IMG/VR virus record: IMGVR_UViG_3300036770_002232
Span: 1 to 21,881 of that record
Length of the DNA: 21,881 bases
Origin: a virus
Direction: 5' to 3' (one strand)
Shown here: positions 2,490 to 21,096 of the stretch, in pieces
Layout: every line of letters starts with the position of its first letter
Position numbering within the stretch: the stretch's first letter is position 1
Program-made: the position numbers and the translations under genes
Notes under the pieces: model-generated
Database searches by the model: none
Seen by the model: only the letters and a program-made list of their open reading frames with translations
What the model was told of the DNA's origin: nothing

Positions 2490-3496
2490 GCGCTAAAGAT
2501 CCTAACGAAAAGAAGGTCGCTGACCTTACAGACTACATGCCCGACCCCGACGTTGAAGACGTCGAAGCCGTAGACCTGAATTTTGGTTTTGAGGAAGGCG
2601 AAGATGAAGAGGCCGTCCCTGCTCGCCGCCCAGATAAAAAAGCAAAGAACAAAGGAGCGAGCAAGGAAGATGAGGGCGATGAGAACGAAGGCGACGTTGA
2701 AGGCGACGAAGCTGGAGATGATAAAGACGGCGAGGGCGATGAGAAGGACGACGCCGAAGCTGGAAAGAAAGAAGCAAAAGAACCCAAAAAACCCCAAAAA
2801 CACATGGTCCCAAAGGAGCGACTAGACAAAGTTCTGGCGCGTAACCGGGAGCTTGAAGCTGAGCTTGCGCGAAAGAACATTGCCTCCAGCACCACTGAGA
2901 CTAAAGCCGGGAAAGAAGAAAAAGCGTTTGACTTTGACGCTGCCGAAGAAGCGTACCAAGACGCGATCCTCGAGGGCGACAAGGCCAAAGCAAAGCAGCT
3001 TAAGGCACAGATGCGTGACGCAGAACGCGCCGTGCTGAGGGCCGAGCTTGCCAAGGAGACCGGTAACGATTCCAAGCGAGACCGGGTTAACGACGCGATC
3101 TTGCAGGCTACGTCCGAAATCGAACGTAATTTCCCTGTGCTGGACTCCAACTCCAAAGAGTATAACAAGGAGATTGCCGACGAGATGGTCGAGACTTACA
3201 CGGGGCTTGTAGCCTCTGGTAAGGACCCGCTCGCCGCGCTTGAGAAAGCGCTTAAGATCACGGTCAAGATGCATGACCTCGTGGACGAGGACGCTGAAGA
3301 AGATCCCGCGCCAAAGAGGGATGTCAAGGACAAACTGGCTGCTGCTAAAAAGCAGCCACCTAAAATGCCTGCGTCCGAGCGCAGCAAGAAAAAAGACCTC
3401 GACCCAGAAGACGTTGATATTTTTTCGTTGACTGAAGAAGAGTTTGACGCGCTGCCCGAGGCGGTGCTCAGGAAGATTCGCGGCGACACTTTTTAG
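2486..3496 (+). CDS. Putative scaffolding protein
   Basis: 336 residues, very rich in Glu, Asp, Lys and Ala. The first ~105 residues are highly acidic and low in complexity. Residues about 112-130 (RLDKVLARNRELEAELARK) look like a coiled coil. The C-terminus ends in an acidic-then-basic element, SLTEEEFDALPEAVLRKIRG, like the short capsid-binding helix at the end of many scaffolds. Scaffolding proteins template procapsid assembly and then leave. Position between portal and major capsid gene supports the role. The start is supported by AAGGAG at 2475-2480, 5 bases upstream of the ATG, and by the 4-bp overlap with the portal gene. No serine-protease or Mu-I-type prohead protease signature is seen in it. 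The function rests on composition and context. Confidence 0.72.
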   Translation: MSAKDPNEKKVADLTDYMPDPDVEDVEAVDLNFGFEEGEDEEAVPARRPDKKAKNKGASKEDEGDENEGDVEGDEAGDDKDGEGDEKDDAEAGKKEAKEPKKPQKHMVPKERLDKVLARNRELEAELARKNIASSTTETKAGKEEKAFDFDAAEEAYQDAILEGDKAKAKQLKAQMRDAERAVLRAELAKETGNDSKRDRVNDAILQATSEIERNFPVLDSNSKEYNKEIADEMVETYTGLVASGKDPLAALEKALKITVKMHDLVDEDAEEDPAPKRDVKDKLAAAKKQPPKMPASERSKKKDLDPEDVDIFSLTEEEFDALPEAVLRKIRGDTF

Positions 3497-3518
3497 CCGC
3501 TCCTAACTATTTTTGACC

Positions 3519-3555
3519 AGCCCTCCAACTTTTTTGGTTGGGGGGCTTTTCTTTT
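3519..3555 (+). terminator. Rho-independent terminator after the scaffold gene
   Basis: An 11-bp stem pairs 3519-3529 (AGCCCTCCAAC) with 3537-3547 (GTTGGGGGGCT), with one G-U pair and a 7-base T-rich loop. It is followed by TTTTCTTTT. It lies 23 bases after the scaffold stop codon and would end or attenuate the terminase-portal-scaffold transcript. Confidence 0.85.
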
Positions 3556-3773
3556 ATTGTTAATCGTGTAATACATAAGGCTCGAATTTACCGATGCGAT
3601 AGTTCGGTACGTGTCTTGGCCCGTAAGCCATGTTTTCGCCCGGGGGGCGTTAAACCCCAGAGGTTCGCGGGCCTTACCGCGCAGTGCTTCGTCGTCCCAC
3701 GATACGGGCAAAACGGGCTTTAGTCGTCCCGAGCGAACACGACTGTCAACCACACTGCAAAAGGATGCCTACC
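3556..3773 (+). promoter_or_regulatory. Non-coding leader region upstream of the major capsid gene
   Basis: About 218 bases after the terminator without a convincing gene. It begins AT-rich (3549-3590) and becomes GC-rich. Possible RNA pairing: GGCCCG at 3618-3623 with CGGGCC at 3668-3673, enclosing a small hairpin CGCCC/GGGCG at 3637-3649. The octamer GTCGTCCC occurs twice, near 3690 and 3723. Because a terminator lies just upstream and the capsid gene needs strong expression, a promoter is expected here, but no clear sigma-70 -35/-10 pair was found. A promoter read by a phage polymerase cannot be excluded. The leader ends in AAAAGG just before the capsid start. Confidence 0.4.
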
Positions 3774-4934
3774 ATGGCTCAAACTAACTTTGCGGCGCTG
3801 ACGACAGAGCAACTGACGGCTTGGAGCCGTGACTTCTGGCGCCACGCACGAAACATGTCTTTTGTCTACCGGTTTGCCGGTTCGGGCTCTAACTCGTTGA
3901 TCCAGCGCGTTACGGACCTGACGAAAACTAAAAAAGGTACCCGCGCGATCATGACTCTGCTTGCTGATATGCAGACAGACGGTGTCACGGGCGACTACGA
4001 CCTCGAAGGCAACGAAGAGGCCCTGCGCTCCTACGACATCTCGATCACGATGGACCAGTTGCGTTTTGCGAACGTCAACAAAGGCCGTCTCGCTGAACAA
4101 AAATCCGTCGTTAACTTCCGTCAGGCTTCCAAAGAAGCAATCGGTTATGCTCTCGCAGACCGCATTGACCAGATGGGCTTCCTGACCCTGTCCGGCGTTT
4201 CCTACACCCTGAAAAACAACGGTGCGCTGCGTCCTGTCCTCGCGACCGGCCAGAACCTCAGCAACCTTGAGTTCGCTGCGGACGTCACCGCCCCAACGGG
4301 TGATCGTTTCCTCCGCTGGGATGCTACGGACGGCCTTGTTGCCGGTGATACGACTGCAGTTGTCGCTGCAGATAAGATCACCTACAAGACCATCGTGCAG
4401 CTCAAGTCGTACGCCAAAGACAACTACATCCGTGGTGTCCGTGGCAAAGGCGGCGACGAAATGTACCACATGTTTGTTACCCCGACCCAGATGTCGGACC
4501 TCAAGCTTGATTCCGACTTCCTCGCAAACGTCCGCAACGCGGGTGTTCGTGGCGAAAGCAACTCCCTGTTCGCTGGTTCGTCCAGCCTCATGGTGGATGG
4601 TGTCATGATCCACGAGTTCCGGCATGTCTTCAACACCTCCCGCGCGCTCACAGGCACGTCGGCTAACGCTGGTGCTGCTGGTTACAAGTGGGGTGCTAAC
4701 GCCAACATCGACGGTGCCCGCGCACTGTTCTGCGGCGCTCAGGCTCTTGCTCTGGCCGATATCGGTAACCCCGAGATGGTCGAAGACGAGTTTGACTACG
4801 GTAACCGCCCGGGTATCTCAATCGGTAAGATCTTTGGCCTCCGTAAGCCAAGGTTCATGTCCGATGTCAGTGGCTCTGTTCAAGACTTTGGTGTTATCGT
4901 CTGCGATACCGCCCAAGCGCTTGTGAACCCGTAA
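3774..4934 (+). CDS. Major capsid protein (phage_capsid_3 / DUF4043, N4-gp56-like)
   Basis: 386 residues from the chosen ATG at 3774 (MAQTNFAALT). AAGG at 3761-3764 is well spaced for this start; the upstream in-frame ATG at 3765 is too close to it, and the longer extension to 3684 is Cys/Arg-rich leader translation. The protein forms the icosahedral shell. Support: an N-terminal segment with RDFWRHARNMSFVYRF, then the family-typical run LEGNEEALRSYDI (around residue 78) and the following ITMDQLRFANVNKGRLAEQ, as in the N4-gp56-like/DUF4043 group with an HK97-like fold. It follows the scaffold gene. Strong isolation between two terminators fits a highly expressed gene. It has no obvious N-terminal pro-domain, so maturation cleavage is not indicated. 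Confidence 0.87.
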   Translation: MAQTNFAALTTEQLTAWSRDFWRHARNMSFVYRFAGSGSNSLIQRVTDLTKTKKGTRAIMTLLADMQTDGVTGDYDLEGNEEALRSYDISITMDQLRFANVNKGRLAEQKSVVNFRQASKEAIGYALADRIDQMGFLTLSGVSYTLKNNGALRPVLATGQNLSNLEFAADVTAPTGDRFLRWDATDGLVAGDTTAVVAADKITYKTIVQLKSYAKDNYIRGVRGKGGDEMYHMFVTPTQMSDLKLDSDFLANVRNAGVRGESNSLFAGSSSLMVDGVMIHEFRHVFNTSRALTGTSANAGAAGYKWGANANIDGARALFCGAQALALADIGNPEMVEDEFDYGNRPGISIGKIFGLRKPRFMSDVSGSVQDFGVIVCDTAQALVNP

Positions 4935-4939
4935 GGAGG
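4933..4939 (+). promoter_or_regulatory. Near-perfect Shine-Dalgarno for the 149-aa gene
   Basis: AAGGAGG overlaps the capsid stop codon (TAA 4932-4934) and lies 9 bases before the ATG at 4949. It is the strongest ribosome binding site in the window together with the one at 6666-6672, suggesting that the small downstream protein is made in large amounts. Confidence 0.75.
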
Positions 4940-4948
4940 TAACACACT

Positions 4949-5398
4949 ATGGCTACTTATACTTCTGATGTGGCCGCAATCGGCCAGTTCTTCGAAGGCC
5001 ACGGCGGCTACGTTCAGGTCCGTAAGGTCCGGTTCGTTGCCACCACCCCGCTCGCAGCCACTGACGTAATTCAGATGGTGCCGGTTCGCGCAGGCGAGCA
5101 GGTTGTTGGCGGGTATGTGATCTTTGGCGATCTCGACGCTAACGCATCTCCGACCGTGACCGTTGATGTCGGCGACGACCTCGACGTGGATCGGTACATC
5201 GATGGTTCGACCGTGCCGCAAACCGGCGGTGTCGTGCAGTTCGGAGCCGGTATTGCTACTACGGCAGCTGCTGGTCTCGCGTACAACCACGTTTACACCG
5301 CTGACAACACCATCGACATCACTATCGTTGGTGCGGTGGCCACGGCTGCAGCTGCAGGCGCGGTCATCACCATGGTCGCGCTCATCGTCGGATCGTAG
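4949..5398 (+). CDS. Small structural protein, possible capsid decoration protein
   Basis: 149 residues, compact, rich in Ala, Val, Thr and Gly, with alternating hydrophobic patterns suggesting a beta-sandwich (for example VQVRKVRFVATTPL near residues 23-36 and a hydrophobic Ala-rich C-terminus). No signal peptide. I do not recognise a named family with certainty. Its place immediately after the major capsid gene, inside the same terminator-bounded unit, with a near-perfect ribosome binding site, suggests a virion protein needed at high copy, such as a cement/decoration or head-fibre protein. Alternative: another abundant small head component. Confidence 0.6.
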   Translation: MATYTSDVAAIGQFFEGHGGYVQVRKVRFVATTPLAATDVIQMVPVRAGEQVVGGYVIFGDLDANASPTVTVDVGDDLDVDRYIDGSTVPQTGGVVQFGAGIATTAAAGLAYNHVYTADNTIDITIVGAVATAAAAGAVITMVALIVGS

Positions 5399-5430
5399 TG
5401 TCGTTTCGCTCTCGACACACTGATACGATC
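5391..5430 (+). other. Inverted repeat at the end of the decoration-like gene
   Basis: GATCGTA (5391-5397) pairs with TACGATC (5424-5430), and inside it GTGTCG (5398-5403) can pair with CGACAC (5413-5418), giving an interrupted stem-loop that spans the stop codon. It sits just before the terminator at 5439-5470. It could protect the 3' end of the capsid mRNA or assist termination. No T-run follows it directly. Confidence 0.45.
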
Positions 5431-5438
5431 TGCTAAGG

Positions 5439-5470
5439 TGTGGGCCGGTGTAACAACCGGCCCACATTTA
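5439..5470 (+). terminator. Rho-independent terminator after the capsid cassette
   Basis: A perfect 11-bp GC-rich stem pairs TGTGGGCCGGT (5439-5449) with ACCGGCCCACA (5456-5466), with a 6-base loop, followed by a short T-rich tail (TTTATAT). The tail is weaker than at 3547-3555, so partial read-through into the downstream connector and ejection genes is likely; no separate promoter is evident before 5484. Confidence 0.75.
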
Positions 5471-5483
5471 TATGGAGTGACGA

Positions 5484-5990
5484 ATGCCTCGTCTTTTTGC
5501 CCCCACAAGGATCACAGTAACTACTACTCACGGCGCTGGCATGACCATGCAGGCTGGCGAGTACCGCACCGTTGGCTCTGAGCTTTTTGCCGCCGCGTTG
5601 CAGCAAGGCGCCTACCCTGCTCCCGAAGAATTTACTCCTTCCGCAGCGCTGCAAGCTTCTGCAGTGCTTGAACCTTTGGCAGACGGCCCTACGCCTCCGG
5701 AACAGTTTGCAAAACCCGGTATTGAAAACGCCATGATTCTTGGCGACGAGCCCGAGGAAGAAGACCGTTACCCCCAAGGCGCAACTGTTGCTCCCGACAC
5801 AACTCCTCTTGAAGAACGCGTTACGGCGGCCATGATCCGTATTATTACCCGTAACGACCCAAAAGACTTTAACAACGACGGTGTTCCTAAAGCACGCGCG
5901 TTGACAGCTGAAATGGGCGGGGTCGCCGTCGTGGCAGAGCTTCGCGAGCGTCTTTGGGAACAGCTAATTAAGAAAGAGGTCGCTCTCTGA
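5484..5990 (+). CDS. Hypothetical phage head/neck protein, 168 aa
   Basis: 168 residues preceded by GGAG at 5474-5477 (6 bases before the ATG). The N-terminal ~45 residues are Thr/Ala-rich, the middle (about 50-110) is Pro/Glu-rich and probably flexible, and the C-terminal ~60 residues contain IITRNDPKDFNNDGVPKARA, an element that recurs in small phage head or neck proteins whose role I cannot name securely. The stop overlaps the next start by one base (TGATG at 5988-5992). By position between the capsid genes and the DUF6682-like adaptor it may be a head-completion or neck factor. That role is inference from context only. Confidence 0.6.
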   Translation: MPRLFAPTRITVTTTHGAGMTMQAGEYRTVGSELFAAALQQGAYPAPEEFTPSAALQASAVLEPLADGPTPPEQFAKPGIENAMILGDEPEEEDRYPQGATVAPDTTPLEERVTAAMIRIITRNDPKDFNNDGVPKARALTAEMGGVAVVAELRERLWEQLIKKEVAL

Positions 5991-6682
5991 TGGCCATCGC
6001 GGTTAACAGCATTGTGTCCGCCGTGCGCAAGATCCTGATGGATGAGGCTGGGATCCGCTGGACCACGGCTGAACTTACCGACTGGATCTCGCACGCGCAG
6101 CGCAATATTGTTAACCACAAACCCGACGCCACCGCTACAGCAGCATGCGTCCTCCTTGTGCCCGGCACGCGCCAGACGATTCCATCCGCTGCGCAGCGCC
6201 TTATCGAGGTGACACGCAACACGAACTCCGCAGGTACTGCACCGGGCCGCGCGATCAAGCTCGTAGACCGTATGGAGATCGATGCGTCTCACCCGCAGTG
6301 GCATTCGGTGAACGCACCGGGCGGAGCGCGGCATGCGAACGTCGTTAAGAACTACGCGTTCAGCGAGAACGATCCGCGAACATTTTACGTGTTCCCCGGC
6401 GTGCTGACCCCCAATACTGCGTACGTAGACATGGTGTACTCTGTTACTCCCGCAGACGCCGTAGCAGGTGCGAACCTCTCTGTGGCCGACTACTACGCCG
6501 AGGCCGTGACAGACTATGTATTGTACCGCGCCTACATGAAAGAGAGTGAGTACGGCGGTTCCGGCGAGCGCGTGCAGCTCCAGCTCCAGCTGTTCCTTGC
6601 TGCTATGGGGCTCGACATTAAGGTCGCAAAAACCAGCTCGCCTAATGCCAACCGGCTGGGCACTGAAGGAGGCCGTAAGTGA
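5990..6682 (+). CDS. DUF6682-like phage protein, probable head-tail adaptor
   Basis: 230 residues. Recognisable run of family features: an N-terminal helix pair with GIRWTTAELTDWISHAQRNI (residues ~21-40), then VLLVPGTRQTIPSAAQRLIE, the RAIKLVDR segment, and DPRTFYVFPGV followed by VDMVYSVTP. This series matches the DUF6682-type phage proteins found in head-tail connector regions of podovirus-like genomes. Such proteins are thought to sit under the portal ring. The gene overlaps the previous one by 1 bp and the next by 4 bp, so the three connector genes are likely translated as a coupled set. The biochemical role is inferred from location. Confidence 0.75.
   Translation: MAIAVNSIVSAVRKILMDEAGIRWTTAELTDWISHAQRNIVNHKPDATATAACVLLVPGTRQTIPSAAQRLIEVTRNTNSAGTAPGRAIKLVDRMEIDASHPQWHSVNAPGGARHANVVKNYAFSENDPRTFYVFPGVLTPNTAYVDMVYSVTPADAVAGANLSVADYYAEAVTDYVLYRAYMKESEYGGSGERVQLQLQLFLAAMGLDIKVAKTSSPNANRLGTEGGRK
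6666..6672 (+). promoter_or_regulatory. Shine-Dalgarno that fixes a GTG start at 6679
   Basis: AAGGAGG lies 6 bases before GTG at 6679, inside the 3' end of the preceding gene. The GTG overlaps the previous TGA stop (GTGA). Together these support the non-ATG start of the next gene. Confidence 0.7.
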
Positions 6683-7365
6683 GCCTGTCCCTTATCCTGC
6701 TTGAAGAATTCTACACCGACATCTACCCGACCGTACCGGGCTGCCCTGAGATGACAATCGAGAACGCGGTGCGGGCCGCAGCGCTGGGTTTCTGTGAAAA
6801 AACCGGAATTGTACAATACGACATGGACCCGATTACTGTTGTAAACGGGCAGCACGAGTACGACTTTGAGTCGCCCGACGAGATGATAGTGCACTCGATC
6901 CTCAATGCCAACTATGATGGCCACCCGCTTACTGTCCTGTCTTCGAAGCTTATCGAGCAAAGGTATCCGCGCCACCGCGAGTACAATGGCGCGCCCGAGG
7001 GTATCTTCCGTAAGGACGCCAGCACGTTCAAACTGTACCCAATTCCTGACACAACCAAAGTGAACTCGTTGTATATGACGGTCGTGGTCAAGCCCGCGCC
7101 GAACTCAGAGTATGTGCCCGAACTGCTGCTCAACGACCACAAGCAGGCTATCGTGGACGGCGCCCTTGCGCGCTTGCTCATGCTGCCCACGAAAGACTGG
7201 ACCAATGGCGCACTGGCCGGAGCCCACACGGCTGCGTTCTTAGGGGCCATTACTGAAGCCTCTCGCCGCGCTCGCCGGGGTGATGAAGGCGCTGCACCTA
7301 AAACTAAGTACGGCGGCATCAGTGGTAACAGCACTCGGCGCGGCTGGCGGAAAGGCTGGAGATGA
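6679..7365 (+). CDS. Second head-tail adaptor / tail-connector-like protein, 228 aa
   Basis: 228 residues starting with GTG, selected because of the strong AAGGAGG and the 4-bp overlap with the upstream stop. The order of helices and strands (LEEFYTDIYPTVPGCP at residues ~8-23, a predicted beta strand around HEYDFESPDEM, and FKLYPIPD near residue 117) resembles phage adaptor/gatekeeper proteins with a connector-like fold, such as the tail-tube-A class. The C-terminus (from ~190) is basic and glycine-rich and ends in RRGWRKGWR. It follows the DUF6682-like gene, so it probably attaches to the same interface. I cannot assign it to a specific named family with certainty. Confidence 0.62.
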   Translation: MSLSLILLEEFYTDIYPTVPGCPEMTIENAVRAAALGFCEKTGIVQYDMDPITVVNGQHEYDFESPDEMIVHSILNANYDGHPLTVLSSKLIEQRYPRHREYNGAPEGIFRKDASTFKLYPIPDTTKVNSLYMTVVVKPAPNSEYVPELLLNDHKQAIVDGALARLLMLPTKDWTNGALAGAHTAAFLGAITEASRRARRGDEGAAPKTKYGGISGNSTRRGWRKGWR

Positions 7366-7763
7366 CGCCAACCATAGTCCGTATCCGCGACCACTGGCCG
7401 TGGGTGTACCCTGTGCTGCAGGAGCTGATCGACAGCACTGGCGCTGGGATTATGCCGGAAGATGTGTTCCATTGGTGCGAAAGTGGCAAAGCTGTTTTTG
7501 TCCTTGCCGCTGAAGGTTTTGTGGTAGCTGCGCAGGATGAAGATCCTGTGACCGGTGCCAAGGAGCTGCTTATCTGGTTTGCTTACGCTAACCGAATAGG
7601 CGGTGATTGCGTAGCGCAGTATATGCCATACTTTATGGACCTTGCTAAAGAGCTGGGATGCCGGTATATTACGACGAAGACTGTGTTTGATCCCGTTGGG
7701 CATCACCTTGAAGAGCATGGGTGGGAACGCGGCCAAACAGAGTATAAGCTGGCGGTGCGCTGA
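7362..7763 (+). CDS. GNAT-fold-like protein, T7 gp13 / internal virion protein A position
   Basis: 133 residues. The C-terminal half has the order expected of a GNAT acetyltransferase fold: ELLIWFAYANR strand region, helix YMPYFMDLAKELGCRYIT, then VGHHLEEHGWERGQTEYKL, which resembles the terminal 'gwe...y' end of GNAT domains. A clear acetyl-CoA pyrophosphate loop (Q/RxxGxG/A) is not visible, so catalytic activity is doubtful. T7 gp13 is of nearly the same length and precedes the core proteins in the same order, which suggests an assembly role in the internal core. ATGA overlap with the upstream gene, and TGATG with the downstream one. Confidence 0.68.
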   Translation: MTPTIVRIRDHWPWVYPVLQELIDSTGAGIMPEDVFHWCESGKAVFVLAAEGFVVAAQDEDPVTGAKELLIWFAYANRIGGDCVAQYMPYFMDLAKELGCRYITTKTVFDPVGHHLEEHGWERGQTEYKLAVR

Positions 7764-8389
7764 TGGGTAAGGGTCCTAAAAAGTCGGATTACCAACCGTC
7801 TGAGGCGGACAAAACAGCTGCGTCTATCGCGCTGCAGCGGTATAACACATACAAGACCAAGTACCAGCCGTTGCTTGTAAAGATGCGCGACAAGGCTGAA
7901 AGCGACGGCCTGATCAAGGTCGCGCGTGGCCGCGCCAACGCTGACACTATGCAGGCGCTGCAGGCTCAAACGCCGGGCATGCGCGCAGCAACTACTGTGG
8001 ACGAAACAACCGCCGATACGGGCGGCGCGCTCCTTAGCCAGCTTCAGAAAGCCACTGCAGCTGGTACCGCAGCTAAGAACGACATGGCGGCAGGCGTTGT
8101 GTCCGCAGCTAACGAGCAGGGCGCGACCGCGCAAAGCGGTCTGCAGGCCATTGCGCGCCAGAACACTTCTGACGCGCTTAACCGCGCCGCTAACAAGCAG
8201 GCGCGCAGAGAAGCTACGATGCAGGCTATAGGCCAGCTGGGGTCGGCCTTCGTTGGTACCGGCCTGCGCAACATTGGTAGCGGCGGTACATTCTTTACGC
8301 CTAACGCTAGCGACGTGGCGGGCGGAGATTTTGTACCGCCTGAAGGGCTGCGCGGTCGCCTGAAGATCGGCATGGGGAGGCTTGGTTAA
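7763..8389 (+). CDS. Internal virion (ejection) protein, T7 gp14-like position, first paralog
   Basis: 208 residues, rich in Ala, Gln, Thr and Asn, largely helical. The N-terminus has a Tyr-spaced motif, RYNTYKTKYQPLLVKMRDKA (residues ~29-48), seen in internal virion proteins of podoviruses. Ala-rich helices follow and a hydrophobic/glycine stretch near 155-180 (IGQLGSAFVGTGLRNIGSGG) could insert into membrane. T7 gp14 (about 196 aa) forms the outer-membrane pore of the ejection channel and is the likely functional analogue. The next gene shares the same arrangement. No signal peptide, as expected for a protein packaged inside the head. Confidence 0.66.
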   Translation: MGKGPKKSDYQPSEADKTAASIALQRYNTYKTKYQPLLVKMRDKAESDGLIKVARGRANADTMQALQAQTPGMRAATTVDETTADTGGALLSQLQKATAAGTAAKNDMAAGVVSAANEQGATAQSGLQAIARQNTSDALNRAANKQARREATMQAIGQLGSAFVGTGLRNIGSGGTFFTPNASDVAGGDFVPPEGLRGRLKIGMGRLG

Positions 8390-11353: not shown

Positions 11354-11358
11354 AGGAG
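11354..11358 (+). promoter_or_regulatory. Ribosome binding site deciding the TTG start of the giant gene
   Basis: AGGAG lies 6 bases upstream of TTG at 11365. No in-frame ATG occurs until well beyond the muralytic domain (first near residue 222), so the TTG is the only start that keeps the N-terminal enzyme domain. Confidence 0.75.
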
Positions 11359-11364
11359 CACCGC

Positions 11365-11980
11365 TTGTCCAAAATCGTAAACGCCATCAATAACGCTGTT
11401 GACAAGCAAGGCGGCTCAGAAGTGCTGCGCGTCCGCGCGGAGCTGAACCGCGTAGGCATCACCGATCCTACCGAGCAGGCCAACGTGCTTGCCCAGATCG
11501 AGGCGGAATCTGCTCTTAAGCCGCGTTCCGAGAACCTGAATTACTCGGCTAAGCGCCTGTTCGAAATCTGGGGTCCGAACCAGAAGAAAAACACTGTCCG
11601 CTTCAAGACGCTCGACGACGCCAAAGCTGCTTCTGCCAAGGGCGAAGAGCACATTGCGTCCCTGATCTACGACGGTCGTAAAGACCTTGGTAACACAGAG
11701 GCTGGCGACGGCTACAAGTTCCGTGGTCGCGGTTTTATCCAGCTCACCGGCAAGGACAACTACAAGCGCTACGGCAAACGCATCGGCGTGGACCTTGTTG
11801 CTAACCCCGATCTGGCCAACGACCCCGAAGTCGCGGCCAAGCTTGCGGCTGAGTACTTCGCCGACAAGAAGAAAAAAGGCGTGGACTTCAAGGACATCGC
11901 TGCGGTTACCAAGGCTGTCGGTCCTGCTGACCCGAACGCTGTCAAGACGCGCACGCAGCTTGCGCAAAAATACCTGACCC
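11365..11980 (+). other. GH19-type (chitinase-like lysozyme) domain at the N-terminus of the giant protein
   Basis: Residues 1 to about 205. The series VLAQIEAESALKPRSENLNY, then EAGDGYKFRGRGFIQLTG and KDNYKRYGK, followed by NPDLANDPEVAAKLAAEYF, is the familiar order of phage GH19 endolysins. E48 is the probable catalytic acid (equivalent to the Glu of HESGG in relatives) and E112 a candidate second carboxylate. Cleavage of peptidoglycan glycan strands during genome entry is the expected job. Confidence 0.82.
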
Positions 11981-14900
11981 CGGGAGCACCCCCCGGAAAA
12001 AAGCCTGAACCGCCATCGCAGGTAGCGATGGCGGGTGTCCTTGGCAAACCACCACCGATCCCTGACTTCAAACCCGCAGCAGACGCAATTACAGGTTTTC
12101 TGGGTAACGCCAAAGAGGCTGTATCTAGCGCTTTTTCTGATTTGCCCCAGATCAGTGCCCCGCAGATGCCCCAGATCAGTGCCCCTGATCTCAAGCCTGC
12201 AGCAGACGCAATTACAGGCTTTCTGGGGAACGCTGGCGCAGCCGCGTCCAGCGCAACCGCCAGCTTCTTTGATAACGCTGGCGCAGCCGTGTCCAGCGTG
12301 TCCGATAACCTTCGCACGTCCATGTTTGACCAAGAGCCGCTGAGCATGCCCCAGATCAGCGCCCCTGATCTCAAACCCGCAGCAGATGCTGTATCCAGCT
12401 TCCTTAGCGGGCTGCAAGCGCCGAGCGCTGAACGCCCAGAGGCGATCAAACCGCCCATTGTTGACGCACCACAGTCGATCACGCCGCAGCCCACTCGCCC
12501 GCCGGAGCCGGGCGACGAGCCGATGATCGACCGCGCACCGAAGATCAAACTCGCGCGTAAGCCGAAGGAGCGCCCCCCAACACGTTTCGACGCAGCCAAG
12601 CTCTCCGCAGTCGAGGCGATGGCCGACCGCTCGTGGTTGGTTAACATCCGCGATGCAGGCGTTGCTCAGTCGGATCTCGTGGCCCGCGAGCAGAACGCGC
12701 CCACGGACTCGCTGGAATCCTTAAACCGTGGCTTCAAGTCCGGCATCGTCCAGATGGGTGTTGACTTCGACTACGCCCGCGCTGGCCTTGAGAGCGCCAT
12801 GGGCAACACTGACCAGATGAACATCTTCCTCGACCGCGCCAAAAGAAACGAGCGCCGCATAGAGGATATTGTCGGCCCGACAGAGTCGCTCAAGGAATTC
12901 TTTGAAGAACCGACCGTAGACGGGTTTTTTGACAAAGTTGGCCTGACCCTTGGTCAAGTTGCTCCGTCTATCACGGTCACGGTCGCCACCGCGTTTGCCA
13001 CAGGCGGCACGAGCGCTGTCTTGTTCGCAGCCCCGCAGTTCGCCGGTAAGACTGTCGCTGTCGGCACGATGAAAAAAATGATTAAAGAGGCAGCGGTCAA
13101 GAAAGCCAAGGGCCTCGCGCTCGACCCCGCCGAAGAGAAGCTGCTGGCTGGTTCCTACCAAGCCATTCGCGCGGCACGCGGCCAAGCATTCAAAAGCGGT
13201 GCTACAGCAGGCGCGTTTGCCACTGAATACCCGCAGATGACTGGCGCTAGCTTCCGCGAGTTTAGCGAAGCAGGCGTAGACCTTAACGATCCTAATTATG
13301 GCCGTGCCTCGCTGGCCATCGGCGGCGGTCTGGCTGCTATCGGCGTGTTCGGCGAAAGACTGATCGTCGAGGGTGCCTTTGAACTGGCGACCAAGAAAGC
13401 ATCGCGCCTTTCGTCTAACCAGAACGTGTTTGCACTCGCCGCCAAAGACATTGCTGCGCTGGGTCTCAGGGGCGCTGCCACAGAAGGCGCGACGGAAGCG
13501 TTGCAGGAAGGCGCGCTGGTCGGCCAGCGTTTTGCCGTTGACGACGATTACTCTGCTGAGGACGCCAAGTGGCGTGTCGCCGAGGCTGGTTTTGCAGGCG
13601 CTCTTGCTGGCGGAGCAATAGGCGGCGGCAGCGGTGTATTTACAGGTACGGCGCGCGCGTTGAGCGTTGAGCCCCCCGTTTCGACCGACCGCTTGCGGAA
13701 GGAACGCGATGTAATCCGTACACGGACACTGGGGGGCGCATTCGGCCCGCAGCGCCGTCCGAAGTACGCTGGCGAATACGAAGCAGCCAAAGGCGCAACT
13801 CCTCAGTATGCCGAAGACTACAAAGGCTTGCTGCACCCTAGCGTCGAAGCCGAGATGAGGGCTTCGGATTACACGCAGGATGACAAGACACGCTTCGAAG
13901 ATGTGCTTAACGTGCTGGATAGTGCGTACAAGGACATCGACGACGGCAACATCGACGTTGCTCGCGAAAAGCTGACAGGCGCGCGCGCCTTGCTGGATAA
14001 AACCGGCGCTAAGAAAACCGCGCAGTACGAACAAGTCCAGCGTCTGTTGCGCGAATCGTTTGCGTCGTTGAACCAAGCGTCGAAGGCGCAGGATCCGCGC
14101 ACAACCGCGCAGAAAATTATGGACAAGGCGAAGGCTACTACGCAAGCTGTCCGCGACAAGATTAACGAAGGCCGCATGGACGCCGAGGAGACTGGTATGT
14201 CGCTCGACGGCCCTACGCAGGAGTCGGAGGCTGACTATAACGCTCAGATCGCGCACCTAGGTAAGACCCTCTCGCCTAAGTCCGGCGTGTGGATCCCCGA
14301 GAACTCGCAGTTCCAGTTCCCCGACACGCTCAAGGACTACGAGCCGGCAAAAGCAGACAACGTCTGGGTTGTAAAAATCCCCGGGCAAGGCGTTCTGCTG
14401 ACCCGCTACAAGTCCGACGCAGTGAAGCTGGCGATGTCCGCACAGGAGAACTCAGGCGGTTTTGAGCGTATGCTCGCCCGTGTGTTGGGCTACTCCGCTG
14501 TTAAGCCTGACGACGCCGACCGCGCTGTGGCAGTGCAGGACGCTGGTGGTAATATCATCAGCGAAGAAGCCACCAACGAAGCAGGCGAAAGGGCAGCTGT
14601 CCTCAACGCCGACAAGATCGCTAAGGCAGCTGGCCCCGGCGCCAGCGTGTTTGTGCGCGACCTCAAGGACGCCCTGCGTTTCCGCCGCGACCGCGCCGAG
14701 GCTGACCAAAATGATGCCTTGAAACCGGCTCAAACTGCGCCAGAGCAAAAAGAAGCACCCGACCAAGAAGTCGTAGACGAAGGCGGGATGGGCGATGGTC
14801 CTGTTGTCCGTAATATGTCTACAAATACCGGATCTGATACGGGAGACCTTGCTGCCCAAGAGCAAGCGCTTGATTTGCTGAGCCAGCTAGAGCCCGGCGA

Positions 14901-17900
14901 AACAATTGTTTCGGGGCGGCTGGGACCGCTCGCAAAAGCTGCTTTTGATTTGGCGCAGAAAACGGCTCCCCTTCAAAAACCGCTTCTGGTTCTCAGCACC
15001 GCAGATGCAAACGTGTCTGCGCTTATCCGGGCACTAGTCTCAATTGGGTCTATGCCTGAGGCGATGCTTACAGTCGCTGCCGCGCTAGACTATGATCCTT
15101 TTTTTCCGACATCAGAAGCATTCGGGGGTGCGTTTTTCCCCGGAACGCCAGACTATAATCTTATTATCCTCAACACAACCTTTTACGATGATGCTTCAAT
15201 TGCTGCAATTGGCGTGCATGAATATGGGCATGCGCTGTTTTCGCAGGCGTACGCTGGCAACAAAACACGCATCGCTACAGAGTTCCGCGCTAGCAAGACC
15301 GGCCAAGAGTTTCTTGCTAAGTTCAAGGAAACTTATGAGGCTGAGTACGGGGTAGCTTATAACAATAACCCCGACAGAATTATCGAGGAGTGGTTTGCGG
15401 ATCAGTTGGCGCTATATGTGCTCAGCCCCGAAAAAGCGCCTAAAGGGCTAACTGACATTTTGAAAGAGTTGTTTACGCAACTCAAAGCAGTGTTTGATGG
15501 CTGGCGAAAGACTGGCCACCCGTTGCTGGTAGCCCGCACAAATCTAACAGACGCATTTGTTGAATTTATCGAGCGGGCTATCCCCGCAGGCATGTTTACT
15601 GCGCCTATTAATCCTGATGAGGTTCGCAAGCACTTTCAAAAACAAGTCGTTGACTTTAATCCTGATGGACCGACTGCCGAAAGCATGTCCACGGGTGTTA
15701 TGCCCACAACTGCTCAGCCCGCCACCCGCAATATGTCCTCAGACGCTCGTTCCGACGCGCTCACCACGGTTGACGCTGAAGAGGCCACCGGCGGCGCAGT
15801 GGTCAAGGACTACGCGTCGGCTGCTGGCCAGAACCGCGAGCTGACCCCCGAACAGGTCAAGCAGATGCTGGACGAGGCTGTTCCCGACGAGGAGCGCCGC
15901 GCTGAGCTGACGCGCTTCGAGGACGCACTGTCCGACAGCGCCGTGAAATACATCGTTAAAGCTTACGCCGACGACCCAGACGGCTACTACTTCGTTGATG
16001 TTATCATCAACGAGTCCGATGAAGCGCGGATCCAGATCAAGCGCGCCTCGACAGGCAAGACCGCGTCGCAAATCTCCGTAGACGAACAGATCGCGGACCG
16101 CGTCGATGCGCTCGTGAAAGCTGTTGCGAAAGACGCCCGCGACAGGAAAGACGAGAAGAAAGCAGCTGTTCCCGGCGACAGCTTCGCGACCAGCATCGTG
16201 GTGACGTCCAGCAAAGGCAAGCGCACCCGCCCAAGCATCGCGCAGCTTATCGCCATCGGTATGAAGATCAACCGCATCGAGGGCGCCGACGCCTTGTTCC
16301 TAGGCGAAGGCATGAGCCCCCAGCAAGCTGTCAAGGCAGGCTTGACACGTGCTGTTAAAGAGCTGGCCTTGCTGGGCTACACATTTGAAATTGACCCGAT
16401 GCCGCAGCAAAAGGCTGCAGCTGATCCGGGTTCTATCTCCGCCCGTGCCGCTCCGCAACGCGCAGCAGGCCGTAGCTTGCAGCTTAACCGCGCTGACCTG
16501 CGCCTATTGCAGCAGCCGAGCAGCATCCCGCAGCTCAAGGACCAAGTCGTTTACTACGACAAGAACCGCCGTATCACGTACACCTATGCCGACGTGATCG
16601 CGACAGCGGACGCACAGGTGCGCCAGAAGGACCGCAACGCAGGTTACCTTAAAGCGTACACGGAGGGTCGCCGCAAGCGTACCGAGGAACGCCTCATCCG
16701 CCAGTGGATGAATGCACGCCGCGCCAACACCAAGCGGTTTACCGCTGGTAACCTGACCGGTGACCAGCTTGCTCTGGCGCAAATGACTTACGGCGATCTT
16801 AGCGCCCCAGACGACGTTTCACCGGGTACGCCGCTGCACGACAAGCTGCGCGACTTCGTAGACGCAAAACTTAAAGCGGCTGATAAAGAATTCGCCCAGA
16901 ACCTACGCGACCGCGAGATCGCCTTCGACCCACAAGACCTCGAAGGTGTCAGCGATCCTGACGCCGAGGCTGAGATGCTGCGCTCTGCCATGCAGGCGTA
17001 CATGAAGGAGAATCCCGGCGAAGAAGTTGTGTTTGAAAACCAAGGCCTCGCCCAGCAGCGCGAAGAAGACGCCGCCAAGGACAATTCGCAGCTGCCTGAA
17101 GAAACGCCTGTGCAGTCTGAACTGGTGTATGAAGGCGCCGAGAAGGACCTCGCCGACCGCGCAGAGCTGCTCGCTCAGATGCGCCCTGCCGCAGCAGCTG
17201 CCTTGCGCGACAACGTAGACCTCGTGCGCGAGAGCCACATTGCAATCCTTGACGCAGCAGCACGTGCTGGCGCCCTGCCGTACATGCAGGCCTTTGCTGC
17301 GCGCCGCAACAATGGCAACAACACCCTGACGCTTCGCATGGCTCCAATCCCGGTCAAGGACCGCCCGGCGGACTACGCAGACAAGCTCCGCGCGTTGTAC
17401 GGTGCGCTCACGCCGGAGGCAGCCTCCCGCCTGCGCAACAAGATCAACTTCGTCACTAACAAGCAGCTCAACAGTTTCTACGCCATCGCAGCGAACGATC
17501 CGTCTCGCCTTGAGATTAACACGGGCGAAGGCGGCATTATAAACATCTCGCGCGCCAAGTGGTTCCCCGGCCTGACCACGCCGATTATGGACCTGCAGCG
17601 TATTATCTTCGAACTTGCCAAGGACCCGACCGCCAAGATCCTTGACGGCCTGTCAGTGCGCGAGAACCCAACCCCGAACGACACGCTTCAGCTAATCAAG
17701 GAAGTTGACAGGCTCAAGGCGTTCCTGCGTGAGGCACGGGCCGGTCTCAGCTTCGACATGCGCGCCGAGCAAGAGATGGAGCTTAACGCTGCCATCGAGC
17801 GCGGCGAAAAAGACCTTCGTAAGAAGCAGGATGAGCTGCGGGCCGCGCGTAAACTCGACAAAAAGGGCGAGTCCAAGACGCGCACCACGCCAAAGGTCCA

Positions 17901-20709
17901 GATACCGACCCGCAACGCCTCGTTCAAGATCCACAGCGCTGTCCCGGCGCTTGTAAGCCGCGTGCTTGGCGTCGCGCACGGCATCGTTTCGCCCAACAAG
18001 CCCGTGGACGTGTTCACCGCTTCTGACTTCGAGGCAGGTTTCCAAGAGTTGGTAGACTCCGGCTTTATCCCCGCAGACTTCGTGCCTGTGTTCCAGCAGC
18101 AGCTTGCCTCCATGCGCGGCGCCGACGGCGACAATGTGTACGGCGCGCTGGTGTTTCGGGGGCGGTACATCATCCTGCTCAACGACCTGCGCGCAGACGG
18201 CGCGGTCAGCGACGCAGTCATGGCAATCGCAGCAGCGCACGAGATGGGCCACATCCTCTTCATCGAAGAGTTCGGCAACATCGAGATGGGCGCTATCCCA
18301 GAGAACGTCGAGAAGGGCCTGCTGGACGGCTACACGCAGTTCGTTAACGAGCAGCGCGCGGCTGGCGCGGAAGTTATTCCGTTCGAAGAGTGGTTCTCTG
18401 ACCAAGTCGGTATCTACGCTTACCGCGAGGCTTCGAACGAAGACCAAAAACGTAGTGATAAAGAGTCTGCTGTTCGGCGCGAACCGCAAAAACCAGACGC
18501 GATTTCTGCCTACTTCAAAAGCATCGCCGAGAAGCTCAAGAAGCTGTTCAACGCAGTCAATAAGCTGTTCGGCGGGCGCCTGCGCCAGAGTCAGCAGTTC
18601 GTGGACTACTTCGAATCAGTCGTCTTCCGCCGGAAGAAGTACGCTGCACCGCCTACTACGCTGATCGGCGTGGCGTACCGCAACATGGCTCAGCAACGGA
18701 TGGTCAACGGGCAGCCGCAGCAGCAACTGGCGTCGAAGCTCTACGACGACGCCAGCAACCTGCTTAAAGACTTTATGAATGATCCAATCGATACGCTCAA
18801 ACGTACTGTGTACGCGACGGATGACTACCTGCGCCAGATGGGACCGGCGGGCGTGGAGCTTGCTCAGTTCTTCCGTGGCCGCTCGCAGTCCAAGGAAGAC
18901 ACGGGCTTCCATTCCGCCAAGATCTTTGAGCAGCACCGCTGGTTCTCCAAGCTGGCCGACGCCATTGGCATCGAGACGGACAAGCTGACAACCGACGAGA
19001 TTGATACGATCCTCTTTGAGGCCGAGGACAACACCATCCCCACCGCACAGCTCTCGCCCAAGGCACAGGCCGTGCGCAAAGTGTTCGACGACATGTACGA
19101 ACAGTACATCACGTACACGGACGCAAACGGCGCAAAAAAGAAGTGGTTCGCCGTTAAAAAGGCGGAGAACTACAACCCGCGCCAGATCAATACGTCAAAT
19201 GTCGCAATTGAACCGACAGGTTTCGCGAACTGGCTCGCGGCTAACGGCTTCGAGTCCCAGAGCGACGCTAACGCTATCGCAGCGTACCTCGCGCAGCAGG
19301 CTGGCAGCATCATGCCCGCAGGTGCTGGCCCGCTTGACGCGCCCATGATGCCGCATGGTAAGGCCCGTAGCCTGAACCAAATCCCGACCAAGGCCCTGCG
19401 CGACGCGCTTATGCCTGATGGCACTCTGGCACCGGGCGCTGACCCTAAATACGGCTGGCTCGTCCCGCCGCAGATGGCCCTGACCCAGTACATCCACTTC
19501 ACCGCGCGTAAGGTCGAGTTCGAACGGCGTGGTGGCAAGGCCAAACTGGAAGGGCTGGTTGCTCAGCTGCCTAAAAAGAAGCAAGCGGATGCTGTCAGGG
19601 CGCTTGAAGCCAACCTCGGCAAGCTTGGCGACGACATCCGCCACCGCCCGGCTGCCCGGCAGTTCAACAGCATCACGCAGGTGACCACCGCTATTACTAC
19701 GCTGACGTTCGCCGTGTTCGCCTCGCTGCCGGACCTTGCCGGGGTTGCGATGCGTTCGAAGGACTTCTCAAATTTCATGGACGTCATGCGCCAGTTCAAG
19801 CGCACGCTGACAGACAAGCAAAACGCAGAGCTGACCCGGTCGGTCGGCGTCGTCACGAGCCAAGCGCTCGACAGCATCTTCATGTCACCCGGCGAGATGG
19901 ACTACACCGCTCCGTGGGCCAAGAAGATCATGGAGAAGTTCTTCGTGTTCAACGGCACGGACGCCTACACCCGGTTTGCCCGTACGTTTGCCACCGGCAT
20001 GGGCCGCGAGTTCCTTGTCAACACCGCGTTCGCCCCGGCGTTTGGCCCGCAGCAGGAACGCTGGCTGTCGGAGCTGGGTGTAACCCGCGACGACATCACC
20101 AGCTGGCACGCTTCTGGGCAGCCGCTGAGCGACCTGACCCCCGGTACCCGCGACCACCGCATCGCTAACGCCATCGCGCGCTTTGCAGAAGAAGCCGTGA
20201 TCCGCCCCGACAGCTCGATCAAACCCGGCTGGGCGTCAAACCCCTACTACAACGTGATCTGGCAGCTCAAAACGTATTTCTACGCCTACGGCAAGATCAT
20301 TATTGCTGGCATGGCGCGCGAGTTCAAGAACCGTATTGATATCGACGGCGACATTAAAGGCGCAGTAGCGCAGCTTTCGCTGGCTATCGGGGGTATCCTG
20401 ATCCTGACCATGATTGGCCTCGAAGCCCGCGAGTGGACCAAGTACCTGCTGCGCCTTTTTATCCCGTGGAAGGACTCGGAGGACGCACTGCAAACCGATA
20501 CAATGGACCTTGGCCAGTATTCAGCCGAAATTGTTGAGCGCTCCGGCCTGCTAGGCCCCTTTGCTCTTGCCACATCGGCCATGGAAGGGTTACAACGTGA
20601 AGGTTGGCTCGGGCCTGTTATTGCCACGGTGCCAGCTGTTGACTTCGTAGACGATTCGGTCTTCGACGGCGATTGGGACCGCGTATTGCCTGTAATAAAT
20701 AATCTCTAG
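11365..20709 (+). CDS. Giant multidomain internal virion protein, T7 gp16-like (3114 aa), with GH19 and two zinc-metallopeptidase-like modules
   Basis: 3114 residues, far longer than T7 gp16 (1318). Order of parts: residues 1-~205, GH19-type muralytic domain (E48 in AQIEAESAL, then ENLNYSAKRLF and GDGYKFRGRGFIQLTGKDNY); ~233-352, three near-repeats containing DLKPAADAITGFLGNA; ~526-565, ~646-673 and ~739-767, hydrophobic Gly/Ala-rich segments of the kind used to cross membranes; ~1149-1455, first HExxH module (H1285-E-Y-G-H1289, E1341-E1342-W); ~1740-1850, a basic helical part; ~2183-2438, second HExxH module (H2292-E-M-G-H2296, E2341-E2342-W); ~2600-3114, conserved C-terminal region with the motif WQLKTYFYAYGKIIIAGM and a hydrophobic stretch AIGGILILTMIGLEA (~3010). 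TTG start with AGGAG. Inferred role: ejected with the DNA, opens peptidoglycan, spans the inner membrane, and possibly acts as a peptidase in the envelope or cell. It resembles the large polyvalent proteins of phages. Much of residues 800-1140 and 1500-2150 is of unknown function. Confidence 0.8.
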   Translation: MSKIVNAINNAVDKQGGSEVLRVRAELNRVGITDPTEQANVLAQIEAESALKPRSENLNYSAKRLFEIWGPNQKKNTVRFKTLDDAKAASAKGEEHIASLIYDGRKDLGNTEAGDGYKFRGRGFIQLTGKDNYKRYGKRIGVDLVANPDLANDPEVAAKLAAEYFADKKKKGVDFKDIAAVTKAVGPADPNAVKTRTQLAQKYLTPGAPPGKKPEPPSQVAMAGVLGKPPPIPDFKPAADAITGFLGNAKEAVSSAFSDLPQISAPQMPQISAPDLKPAADAITGFLGNAGAAASSATASFFDNAGAAVSSVSDNLRTSMFDQEPLSMPQISAPDLKPAADAVSSFLSGLQAPSAERPEAIKPPIVDAPQSITPQPTRPPEPGDEPMIDRAPKIKLARKPKERPPTRFDAAKLSAVEAMADRSWLVNIRDAGVAQSDLVAREQNAPTDSLESLNRGFKSGIVQMGVDFDYARAGLESAMGNTDQMNIFLDRAKRNERRIEDIVGPTESLKEFFEEPTVDGFFDKVGLTLGQVAPSITVTVATAFATGGTSAVLFAAPQFAGKTVAVGTMKKMIKEAAVKKAKGLALDPAEEKLLAGSYQAIRAARGQAFKSGATAGAFATEYPQMTGASFREFSEAGVDLNDPNYGRASLAIGGGLAAIGVFGERLIVEGAFELATKKASRLSSNQNVFALAAKDIAALGLRGAATEGATEALQEGALVGQRFAVDDDYSAEDAKWRVAEAGFAGALAGGAIGGGSGVFTGTARALSVEPPVSTDRLRKERDVIRTRTLGGAFGPQRRPKYAGEYEAAKGATPQYAEDYKGLLHPSVEAEMRASDYTQDDKTRFEDVLNVLDSAYKDIDDGNIDVAREKLTGARALLDKTGAKKTAQYEQVQRLLRESFASLNQASKAQDPRTTAQKIMDKAKATTQAVRDKINEGRMDAEETGMSLDGPTQESEADYNAQIAHLGKTLSPKSGVWIPENSQFQFPDTLKDYEPAKADNVWVVKIPGQGVLLTRYKSDAVKLAMSAQENSGGFERMLARVLGYSAVKPDDADRAVAVQDAGGNIISEEATNEAGERAAVLNADKIAKAAGPGASVFVRDLKDALRFRRDRAEADQNDALKPAQTAPEQKEAPDQEVVDEGGMGDGPVVRNMSTNTGSDTGDLAAQEQALDLLSQLEPGETIVSGRLGPLAKAAFDLAQKTAPLQKPLLVLSTADANVSALIRALVSIGSMPEAMLTVAAALDYDPFFPTSEAFGGAFFPGTPDYNLIILNTTFYDDASIAAIGVHEYGHALFSQAYAGNKTRIATEFRASKTGQEFLAKFKETYEAEYGVAYNNNPDRIIEEWFADQLALYVLSPEKAPKGLTDILKELFTQLKAVFDGWRKTGHPLLVARTNLTDAFVEFIERAIPAGMFTAPINPDEVRKHFQKQVVDFNPDGPTAESMSTGVMPTTAQPATRNMSSDARSDALTTVDAEEATGGAVVKDYASAAGQNRELTPEQVKQMLDEAVPDEERRAELTRFEDALSDSAVKYIVKAYADDPDGYYFVDVIINESDEARIQIKRASTGKTASQISVDEQIADRVDALVKAVAKDARDRKDEKKAAVPGDSFATSIVVTSSKGKRTRPSIAQLIAIGMKINRIEGADALFLGEGMSPQQAVKAGLTRAVKELALLGYTFEIDPMPQQKAAADPGSISARAAPQRAAGRSLQLNRADLRLLQQPSSIPQLKDQVVYYDKNRRITYTYADVIATADAQVRQKDRNAGYLKAYTEGRRKRTEERLIRQWMNARRANTKRFTAGNLTGDQLALAQMTYGDLSAPDDVSPGTPLHDKLRDFVDAKLKAADKEFAQNLRDREIAFDPQDLEGVSDPDAEAEMLRSAMQAYMKENPGEEVVFENQGLAQQREEDAAKDNSQLPEETPVQSELVYEGAEKDLADRAELLAQMRPAAAAALRDNVDLVRESHIAILDAAARAGALPYMQAFAARRNNGNNTLTLRMAPIPVKDRPADYADKLRALYGALTPEAASRLRNKINFVTNKQLNSFYAIAANDPSRLEINTGEGGIINISRAKWFPGLTTPIMDLQRIIFELAKDPTAKILDGLSVRENPTPNDTLQLIKEVDRLKAFLREARAGLSFDMRAEQEMELNAAIERGEKDLRKKQDELRAARKLDKKGESKTRTTPKVQIPTRNASFKIHSAVPALVSRVLGVAHGIVSPNKPVDVFTASDFEAGFQELVDSGFIPADFVPVFQQQLASMRGADGDNVYGALVFRGRYIILLNDLRADGAVSDAVMAIAAAHEMGHILFIEEFGNIEMGAIPENVEKGLLDGYTQFVNEQRAAGAEVIPFEEWFSDQVGIYAYREASNEDQKRSDKESAVRREPQKPDAISAYFKSIAEKLKKLFNAVNKLFGGRLRQSQQFVDYFESVVFRRKKYAAPPTTLIGVAYRNMAQQRMVNGQPQQQLASKLYDDASNLLKDFMNDPIDTLKRTVYATDDYLRQMGPAGVELAQFFRGRSQSKEDTGFHSAKIFEQHRWFSKLADAIGIETDKLTTDEIDTILFEAEDNTIPTAQLSPKAQAVRKVFDDMYEQYITYTDANGAKKKWFAVKKAENYNPRQINTSNVAIEPTGFANWLAANGFESQSDANAIAAYLAQQAGSIMPAGAGPLDAPMMPHGKARSLNQIPTKALRDALMPDGTLAPGADPKYGWLVPPQMALTQYIHFTARKVEFERRGGKAKLEGLVAQLPKKKQADAVRALEANLGKLGDDIRHRPAARQFNSITQVTTAITTLTFAVFASLPDLAGVAMRSKDFSNFMDVMRQFKRTLTDKQNAELTRSVGVVTSQALDSIFMSPGEMDYTAPWAKKIMEKFFVFNGTDAYTRFARTFATGMGREFLVNTAFAPAFGPQQERWLSELGVTRDDITSWHASGQPLSDLTPGTRDHRIANAIARFAEEAVIRPDSSIKPGWASNPYYNVIWQLKTYFYAYGKIIIAGMAREFKNRIDIDGDIKGAVAQLSLAIGGILILTMIGLEAREWTKYLLRLFIPWKDSEDALQTDTMDLGQYSAEIVERSGLLGPFALATSAMEGLQREGWLGPVIATVPAVDFVDDSVFDGDWDRVLPVINNL
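12061..12420 (+). repeat. Three imperfect in-frame repeats in the linker after the GH19 domain
   Basis: Related copies at 12061-12111, 12182-12234 and 12345-12420. The first two share AAACCCGCAGC/AAGCCTGCAGC followed by an almost identical AGACGCAATTACAGG..TTTCTGGG segment, coding KPAADAITGFLGNA; the third codes KPAADAVSSFLSG. Short PQISAP units precede copies two and three. They encode amphipathic helices joined by Pro-rich spacers. Confidence 0.75.
14809..15738 (+). other. First zinc-metallopeptidase-like module, in a low-GC island bracketed by RNMS
   Basis: Codes residues 1149-1458 of the giant protein. The zinc motif is HEYGH (1285-1289), preceded by NLIILNTTFYDDASIAAIG and followed by EEWFADQ (1341-1347), whose Glu would be the third ligand; a helical tail (LKELFTQLKAVFDGW) follows. 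RNMS occurs at both ends (1149-1152 and 1455-1458). Hand-counted GC for 14821-15720 is about 51%, against about 67-72% in the adjacent lines on each side. Confidence 0.7.
17911..18690 (+). other. Second zinc-metallopeptidase-like module
   Basis: Codes residues about 2183-2442. HEMGH (2292-2296) is preceded by RGRYIILLNDL and followed by EEWFSDQ (2341-2347), then a helical tail (AEKLKKLFNAVNKLF) and FVDYFESVV. The layout parallels the first module element by element. It begins with RNAS (2183-2186) and is followed by RNMA (2439-2442). Base composition is similar to the gene backbone. Confidence 0.7.
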
Positions 20710-20718
20710 GGAGCTAAC

Positions 20719-21096
20719 ATGGCTTACAGTGACACCATTAACTGCGTAGTCGGCGACACCCTCCCGTCGCTGGTGTGTACCGTACGCGACCGCAATACCG
20801 CCGCGCCGGGACAAACGCTCCGCCCCAATGACCCATTGACGTGGGCGCCAATGAATCTTACCGGCGCAACAGTGCGTATGTATATCCGCGCCGCAGGCAT
20901 TACAACAGCCCCTGTAGCCACGCTGATAGGCGCGCTTGTAGATCCCGCAAATGGCGTAGTTGCCTTTACGTTTGGCAGCAACACGCTGTCAGCGGCGGGT
21001 ACGTTTGACGCCGAAGTTGAGATTACGTTTTCGGGCGGCGGCATCCAGACTATTATCGATTTCATAAAGATTAAAGTGCGCGATCAAATTGCGTAA
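20719..21096 (+). CDS. BppU N-terminal-like / immunoglobulin-like tail appendage protein
   Basis: 125 residues with AGGGAG at 20708-20713, 5 bases before the ATG and overlapping the preceding stop. The pattern GDTLPSLVCTVRD, then WAPMNLTGATVRMYIR, then ANGVVAFTFGSNTLSAAGTF and AEVEITFSGG, is the beta-sandwich layout of BppU-N-terminal (DUF2479-like) domains that many phages place at the base of receptor-binding structures. Here the domain is a stand-alone protein with no receptor-binding part, so it probably serves as an adaptor between tail and appendage. Its stop overlaps the next start by one base (TAATG), indicating coupling with the repeat protein. Confidence 0.72.
   Translation: MAYSDTINCVVGDTLPSLVCTVRDRNTAAPGQTLRPNDPLTWAPMNLTGATVRMYIRAAGITTAPVATLIGALVDPANGVVAFTFGSNTLSAAGTFDAEVEITFSGGGIQTIIDFIKIKVRDQIA

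Follow-up and report, generated by a model that had tools for sequence, protein, structure and literature searches.

The polyvalent proteins of phages, as described by Iyer et al. (2017, PMC5512222), carry a zincin-like peptidase as their commonest domain, in one to five copies per protein. About 8% of the class have more than one zincin copy, the MPTases of these proteins fall into 12 clades, and a HEXXXH variant is known for the peptidases of the class (PMC5512222). Two differing cases bear on what zincin-like domains do in the giant proteins that phages inject: DdrB of phage P1 is reported to be processed before packaging, whereas the virion RNA polymerase of N4, which has an HExxH domain, nevertheless enters the particle uncut, and encapsidation requires its peptidase region (PMC5512222). 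Because the N4 protein is packaged uncut, self-processing is not general.

The window analyzed in this study, a stretch of 21,881 nucleotides that is a fragment of a viral genome (IMG/VR record IMGVR_UViG_3300036770_002232), encodes on the plus strand a giant, multi-domain, virion-type protein of 3114 amino acids (positions 11365–20709), which has a TTG start codon preceded by AGGAG at 11354–11358. The giant gene is placed among virion structural genes. Upstream of it, and also on the plus strand, are genes encoding a P22-type portal protein (312–2489; PF16510, E 2.6e-87), a probable scaffold protein (2486–3496), assigned by a weak match (PHROG 8865, E 0.009) and by its position between the portal and capsid genes, and the major capsid protein (3684–4934; PF13252, E 1.2e-41); adaptor genes are found upstream as well. 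The product of the gene immediately downstream (20719–21096) matched PF10651 with an E of 5.5e-5, barely above cutoff, which indicates a BppU N-terminal-like domain and suggests a tail or receptor-binding part. The capsid and portal proteins were nearest to those of KPP25-like podoviruses (52% identity for the capsid and 38% for the portal), with the Bcep22-like podoviruses more distant, and the KPP25-like phages are the closest cultured relatives of the window phage.

Several unrelated domains are combined in the one giant polypeptide, namely an N-terminal GH19 domain, two zincin-like modules, and a C-terminal virion region. The GH19 domain, of the lysozyme/endolysin type (residues 23–222, positions 11431–12030), matched PHROG 181 (endolysin, E 6.6e-48) and PF00182 (E 8.5e-8, above cutoff). 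Two further conserved blocks have no family match: residues 443–741 (12691–13587) are common to most relatives (blastp E 1e-14 to 1e-33) and gave no match in named phages, and residues 913–1143 (14101–14793) are common to many relatives (blastp E 1e-8 to 1e-14). The conserved C-terminal region (residues 2660–3114, positions 19342–20706) matched PHROG 35479/6958 and was found by tblastn and blastp to be common to virion-type proteins of KPP25, phiA008, PaP3 and CRP-810; the KPP25 homologue is annotated as structural, and PaP3 orf19 consists of this region only. As a large protein with a cell-wall lytic N-terminus the giant protein resembles T7 gp16, a large internal virion ejection protein, which is not known to contain a zincin; the giant protein had no match to the gp16 family in Pfam or PHROGs.

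The domain mix and the placement beside virion genes fit the class of phage polyvalent proteins, which are likewise giant and multi-domain and include lysozyme-type fusions. No LPD family was detected in the giant protein in Pfam at E ≤ 1, LPDs being common in the class and not required of it. The C-terminal region was considered as a candidate LPD38 domain and rejected (hhalign, 0.3%). That the giant protein would be virion-borne and injected is well supported by the context of its gene.

The initial annotation had reported HEYGH at residues 1285–1289 and HEMGH at residues 2292–2296, and both motifs are present in the translation of 11365–20709 (at 15217–15231 and 18238–18252, respectively). 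The EEWF(A/S)DQ motif, said to follow 50–57 residues later, was found in both modules, as EEWFADQ at residue 1341 (15385–15405) and as EEWFSDQ at residue 2341 (18385–18405), with a spacing from the first His of 56 residues in module 1 and 49 residues in module 2; in each case the Glu, which lies in an invariant column, is the predicted third metal ligand. Amphipathic helices come next, and the similar helical tail noted earlier falls inside the alignments of both modules. The two modules are real, and the limits first given for them were too short: module 1 comprises about residues 1165–1430 (14857–15654) and module 2 about residues 2181–2445 (17905–18699), both on the plus strand.

Direct blastp comparison aligned the two modules with E 3e-6 and 23% over 251 columns. 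A profile constructed from the copies of other phages alone recovered both module 1 (i-E 3.3e-11) and module 2 (i-E 6.8e-29), and hhalign matched module 1 to the module family at 97% (E 5e-11). In 20 aligned copies, the columns H, E, G, H and E-E-W-F/D are invariant. An origin of the HExxH motifs as chance matches without common ancestry can be weighed against these results: the giant protein contains only 20 His, and 0.008 HExxH motifs per protein are expected from its composition, whereas two were observed. This expectation, the direct alignment, the profile and hhalign matches and the conservation in dozens of phages rule out chance, the probability of which is considered next to nil. The earlier argument from the agreement of separate elements is thus confirmed, and the proposal of two paralogous zincin-type modules is borne out by sequence homology, near-universal motif conservation and the order of elements in the predicted structures. 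The tree gave no support for a recent tandem duplication as the origin of the two modules, which did not pair in it, although long branches make this tree weak.

In the AlphaFold models of both module 1 (pLDDT 79.9, pTM 0.83) and module 2 (pLDDT 80.2, pTM 0.76), the N-terminal helix is followed by three main strands, then by a helix that bears HExxH and, later, by one that bears the invariant EE of EEWF, the Glu of which may bind metal. The order of elements in both models is zincin-like and corresponds to the core described for polyvalent proteins (PMC5512222). In a Foldseek search of PDB with module 2, mostly metallopeptidases were at the top, including lethal factor, the reference fold used by Iyer et al. 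(2017, PMC5512222), with a best E of at least 0.07 and none at E ≤ 1e-3; with module 1, lethal factor came first in an otherwise mixed list, none of it significant (E at least 0.07). Among viral structure models, the best match to module 2 was a protein annotated as 'large polyvalent protein associated domain' (E 2.5e-6). The structure predictions that had been suggested earlier gave a zincin-like order of elements, and the fold comparison gave no significant match to any solved structure. A PDB sequence search with the module alignment gave nothing significant, and the EEWF(S/A)DQ family matched no zincin model above cutoff in the copies of Pfam, PHROGs and NCBIfam that were searched, from which it is absent as a zincin. 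Taken on its own, the zincin-like identity of both modules is very likely.

The MPTases of polyvalent proteins resemble the window modules in that the conserved helix after that of HExxH carries a Glu and in that several copies may be present in one protein, with a sequence link from the EEWF(S/A)DQ family to the N4 and DC1 examples that is below detection. In hhalign comparisons the module family and the N4 peptidase region gave 3–6% probability, and the comparison with the DC1 giant protein was negative as well; the control pair of two accepted members, N4 versus DC1, likewise failed at 10%, which leaves the negative outcome uninformative. In the C1 region of the N4 virion RNA polymerase (gp50, about 2124–2375), HELVH is followed about 75 residues on by NEFMAW and by an amphipathic helix, and the region lies ahead of a large C-terminal domain; the N4 protein, which is packaged and injected, differs in having a polymerase domain, none of which was found in the giant protein of the window. 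The DarB-like proteins of Bcep22-like phages (DC1 gp67, JC1 gp69) accompany related portal and capsid proteins, have a cell-wall lytic N-terminus, and contain HEAFH followed by EEFGAY near the C-terminal end. Mass spectrometry detected the giant JC1 protein, whose gene is at a matching position, among the proteins of the virion (PMC9144972). The DC1 protein comprises SLT, methylase, helicase, LPD3, the HEAFH region and LPD38, of which methylase, helicase, LPD3 and LPD38 set the DC1 and JC1 proteins apart from the window protein, and no match between the DC1-type giant protein and the window protein was found by blastp. The exceptional status first attributed to the arrangement did not hold, given the frequency and copy number of zincin-like domains in the class (PMC5512222) and the presence of one in the N4 virion RNA polymerase. 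The system extends a described class and is most likely ordinary within that class, not a new kind of system.

Relatives of module 2 were found in about 85 large phage proteins (partly redundant), mostly with HE(I/L/M)GH and some with HEXXXH. When viral contigs were scanned with module 2, 35 loci emerged, each with HE(I/L/M)GH followed 44–52 residues on by EEWFSD, in ORFs of 1.3–3.2 kaa, part of which are clipped at contig ends. Another 34 viral contigs were retrieved with a DNA pattern for EEWFADQ, most of them with HExxH 36–83 residues upstream, and in seven loci (L097, L100, L106, L107, L109, L118 and L120) HEXXXH, as HEALGH or HEAIGH, replaces HEXXH while EEWFADQ is kept. Module 1 as query found no relatives in viral contigs and none in named phages. 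In a scan of 88 proteins, some of them redundant, with the family profile, two strong intact copies occurred in the window protein alone; the second intact copy is thus unusual within its own family, with precedent in the class. In the relatives, module 2 accompanies the C-terminal region, and the position of module 1 has no counterpart there. Module 1 is an accessory second copy and module 2 the copy kept by essentially all relatives found, the apparent universality of module 2 being partly a matter of selection because the loci were retrieved via module 2.

Cultured relatives show different arrangements of the same parts. Gene0066 of Aeromonas phage phiA008 has a homologous module and the C-terminal region but only one module copy and an SNase N-terminus. 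Roseobacter phage CRP-810 has two divergent module copies in gp35, and its homologous C-terminal region is split off into gp34; because gp35 and gp34 are encoded separately, separation of the peptidase part from the C-terminal domain is evidently tolerated. By hhalign, no match to the module family was detectable for the KPP25 protein related to the C-terminal region. In a 3237-aa ORF (L002), a degenerate second copy (residues about 1415–1490, with HQLGY and PQEYFANQ) lies beside an intact copy, and in the tree it falls together with the first of the two CRP-810 gp35 copies (99/97 support).

We propose that the giant protein is a polyvalent virion protein, which would be packaged in the particle of a short-tailed phage and injected with the DNA. 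The N-terminal GH19 domain would open peptidoglycan, and residues 2660–3114 would be the conserved virion part. Each module would act as a zincin-like peptidase, in which the His pair of HExxH and the Glu of EEWF would serve as zinc ligands, and water would be activated by the Glu of HExxH. Module 2 would most likely cut the giant protein in cis, or neighboring copies in trans, between the cargo and the C-terminal part, at packaging or at entry, and module 1, as an accessory copy, would either make another cut or target a host protein. The separate genes of CRP-810 and the reported processing of P1 DdrB favor such a cut, and the uncut packaging of the N4 enzyme speaks against it. This proposal, with self-processing by module 2 and either an additional cut or a host-directed activity for module 1, is considered reasonably probable. 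Self-processing is its weaker part as compared with the domain identity; virion location, zinc binding, proteolysis, cut sites and timing are what we infer. A strict division of labor, in which module 2 would cut the protein itself and module 1 would be injected to cleave a host target, seems doubtful.

The cargo of the relatives varies (GH19, SNase, SLOG, weak NADAR), module 2 and the C-terminus are retained, and this pattern bears on an alternative in which one or both modules are injected effectors that cleave host proteins after entry, without self-processing. Such a function is named as an alternative by Iyer et al. (PMC5512222), would agree with the SNase, SLOG and weak NADAR domains as other possible effector-type cargo, and would suit module 1 as an accessory copy. 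However, the position of module 2 beside the C-terminal part in nearly all relatives despite varying cargo, in part a product of selection, is a better fit to a housekeeping function, and no host target is known; this alternative is regarded as unlikely. Exchangeable cargo was located as a cpYpsA SLOG domain in L003 (1291–1435), a weak NADAR match in L031 (about 1084–1189), and SNase domains in L036 (98–175) and in phiA008 (L073, 28–112).

A second alternative is that the zincin fold has become mainly structural, with a part in packaging or assembly and little if any peptidase activity, which may also apply to the C-terminal domain of the N4 virion RNA polymerase. The uncut N4 virion RNA polymerase, with its peptidase region needed for encapsidation (PMC5512222), would be in line with this, and the degenerate HQLGY copy of L002 indicates that a module copy can persist without the motif. 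Conversely, both copies in the window are intact, and the retention of HExxH or HEXXXH together with EEWF at very large divergence is unexpected of a merely structural domain, so a purely structural function is judged quite improbable. Self-processing by module 2 remains the preferred reading, and the EEWF(S/A)DQ family makes it directly testable: its module is strongly conserved, relatives (phiA008, CRP-810) are in culture, and a split gene, a degenerate copy and HEXXXH variants serve as natural experiments.

Maturation of other capsid proteins by the modules, in place of a prohead protease, had also been suggested, from the absence of such a protease in the window. The protein that contains the modules is probably a virion protein, and its gene is a neighbor of capsid genes. 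The portal, probable scaffold and capsid genes are, however, in a P22-like order, and P22-type assembly uses a scaffold and is not known to need a prohead protease. Since the window is a fragment, the absence of a prohead protease proves nothing, and the suggestion was not sustained; a maturation function is considered very improbable.

Podovirus ctwe8250 (L090), which has related capsid and portal proteins, encodes at 19794–26294 a 2166-aa protein with HELGH at residue 1056, and hhalign of its HExxH region versus the module family gave no detectable match. Bacterial genomes scanned with the module alignment gave no match, and the EEWF pattern gave one good match in bacterial genomes, in a contig of Motiliproteus coralliicola (L142). 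There, an ORF on the minus strand (2612–7999) encodes an open-ended homologue of 1796 aa with HELGH and EEWFADQ, which probably belongs to a prophage.
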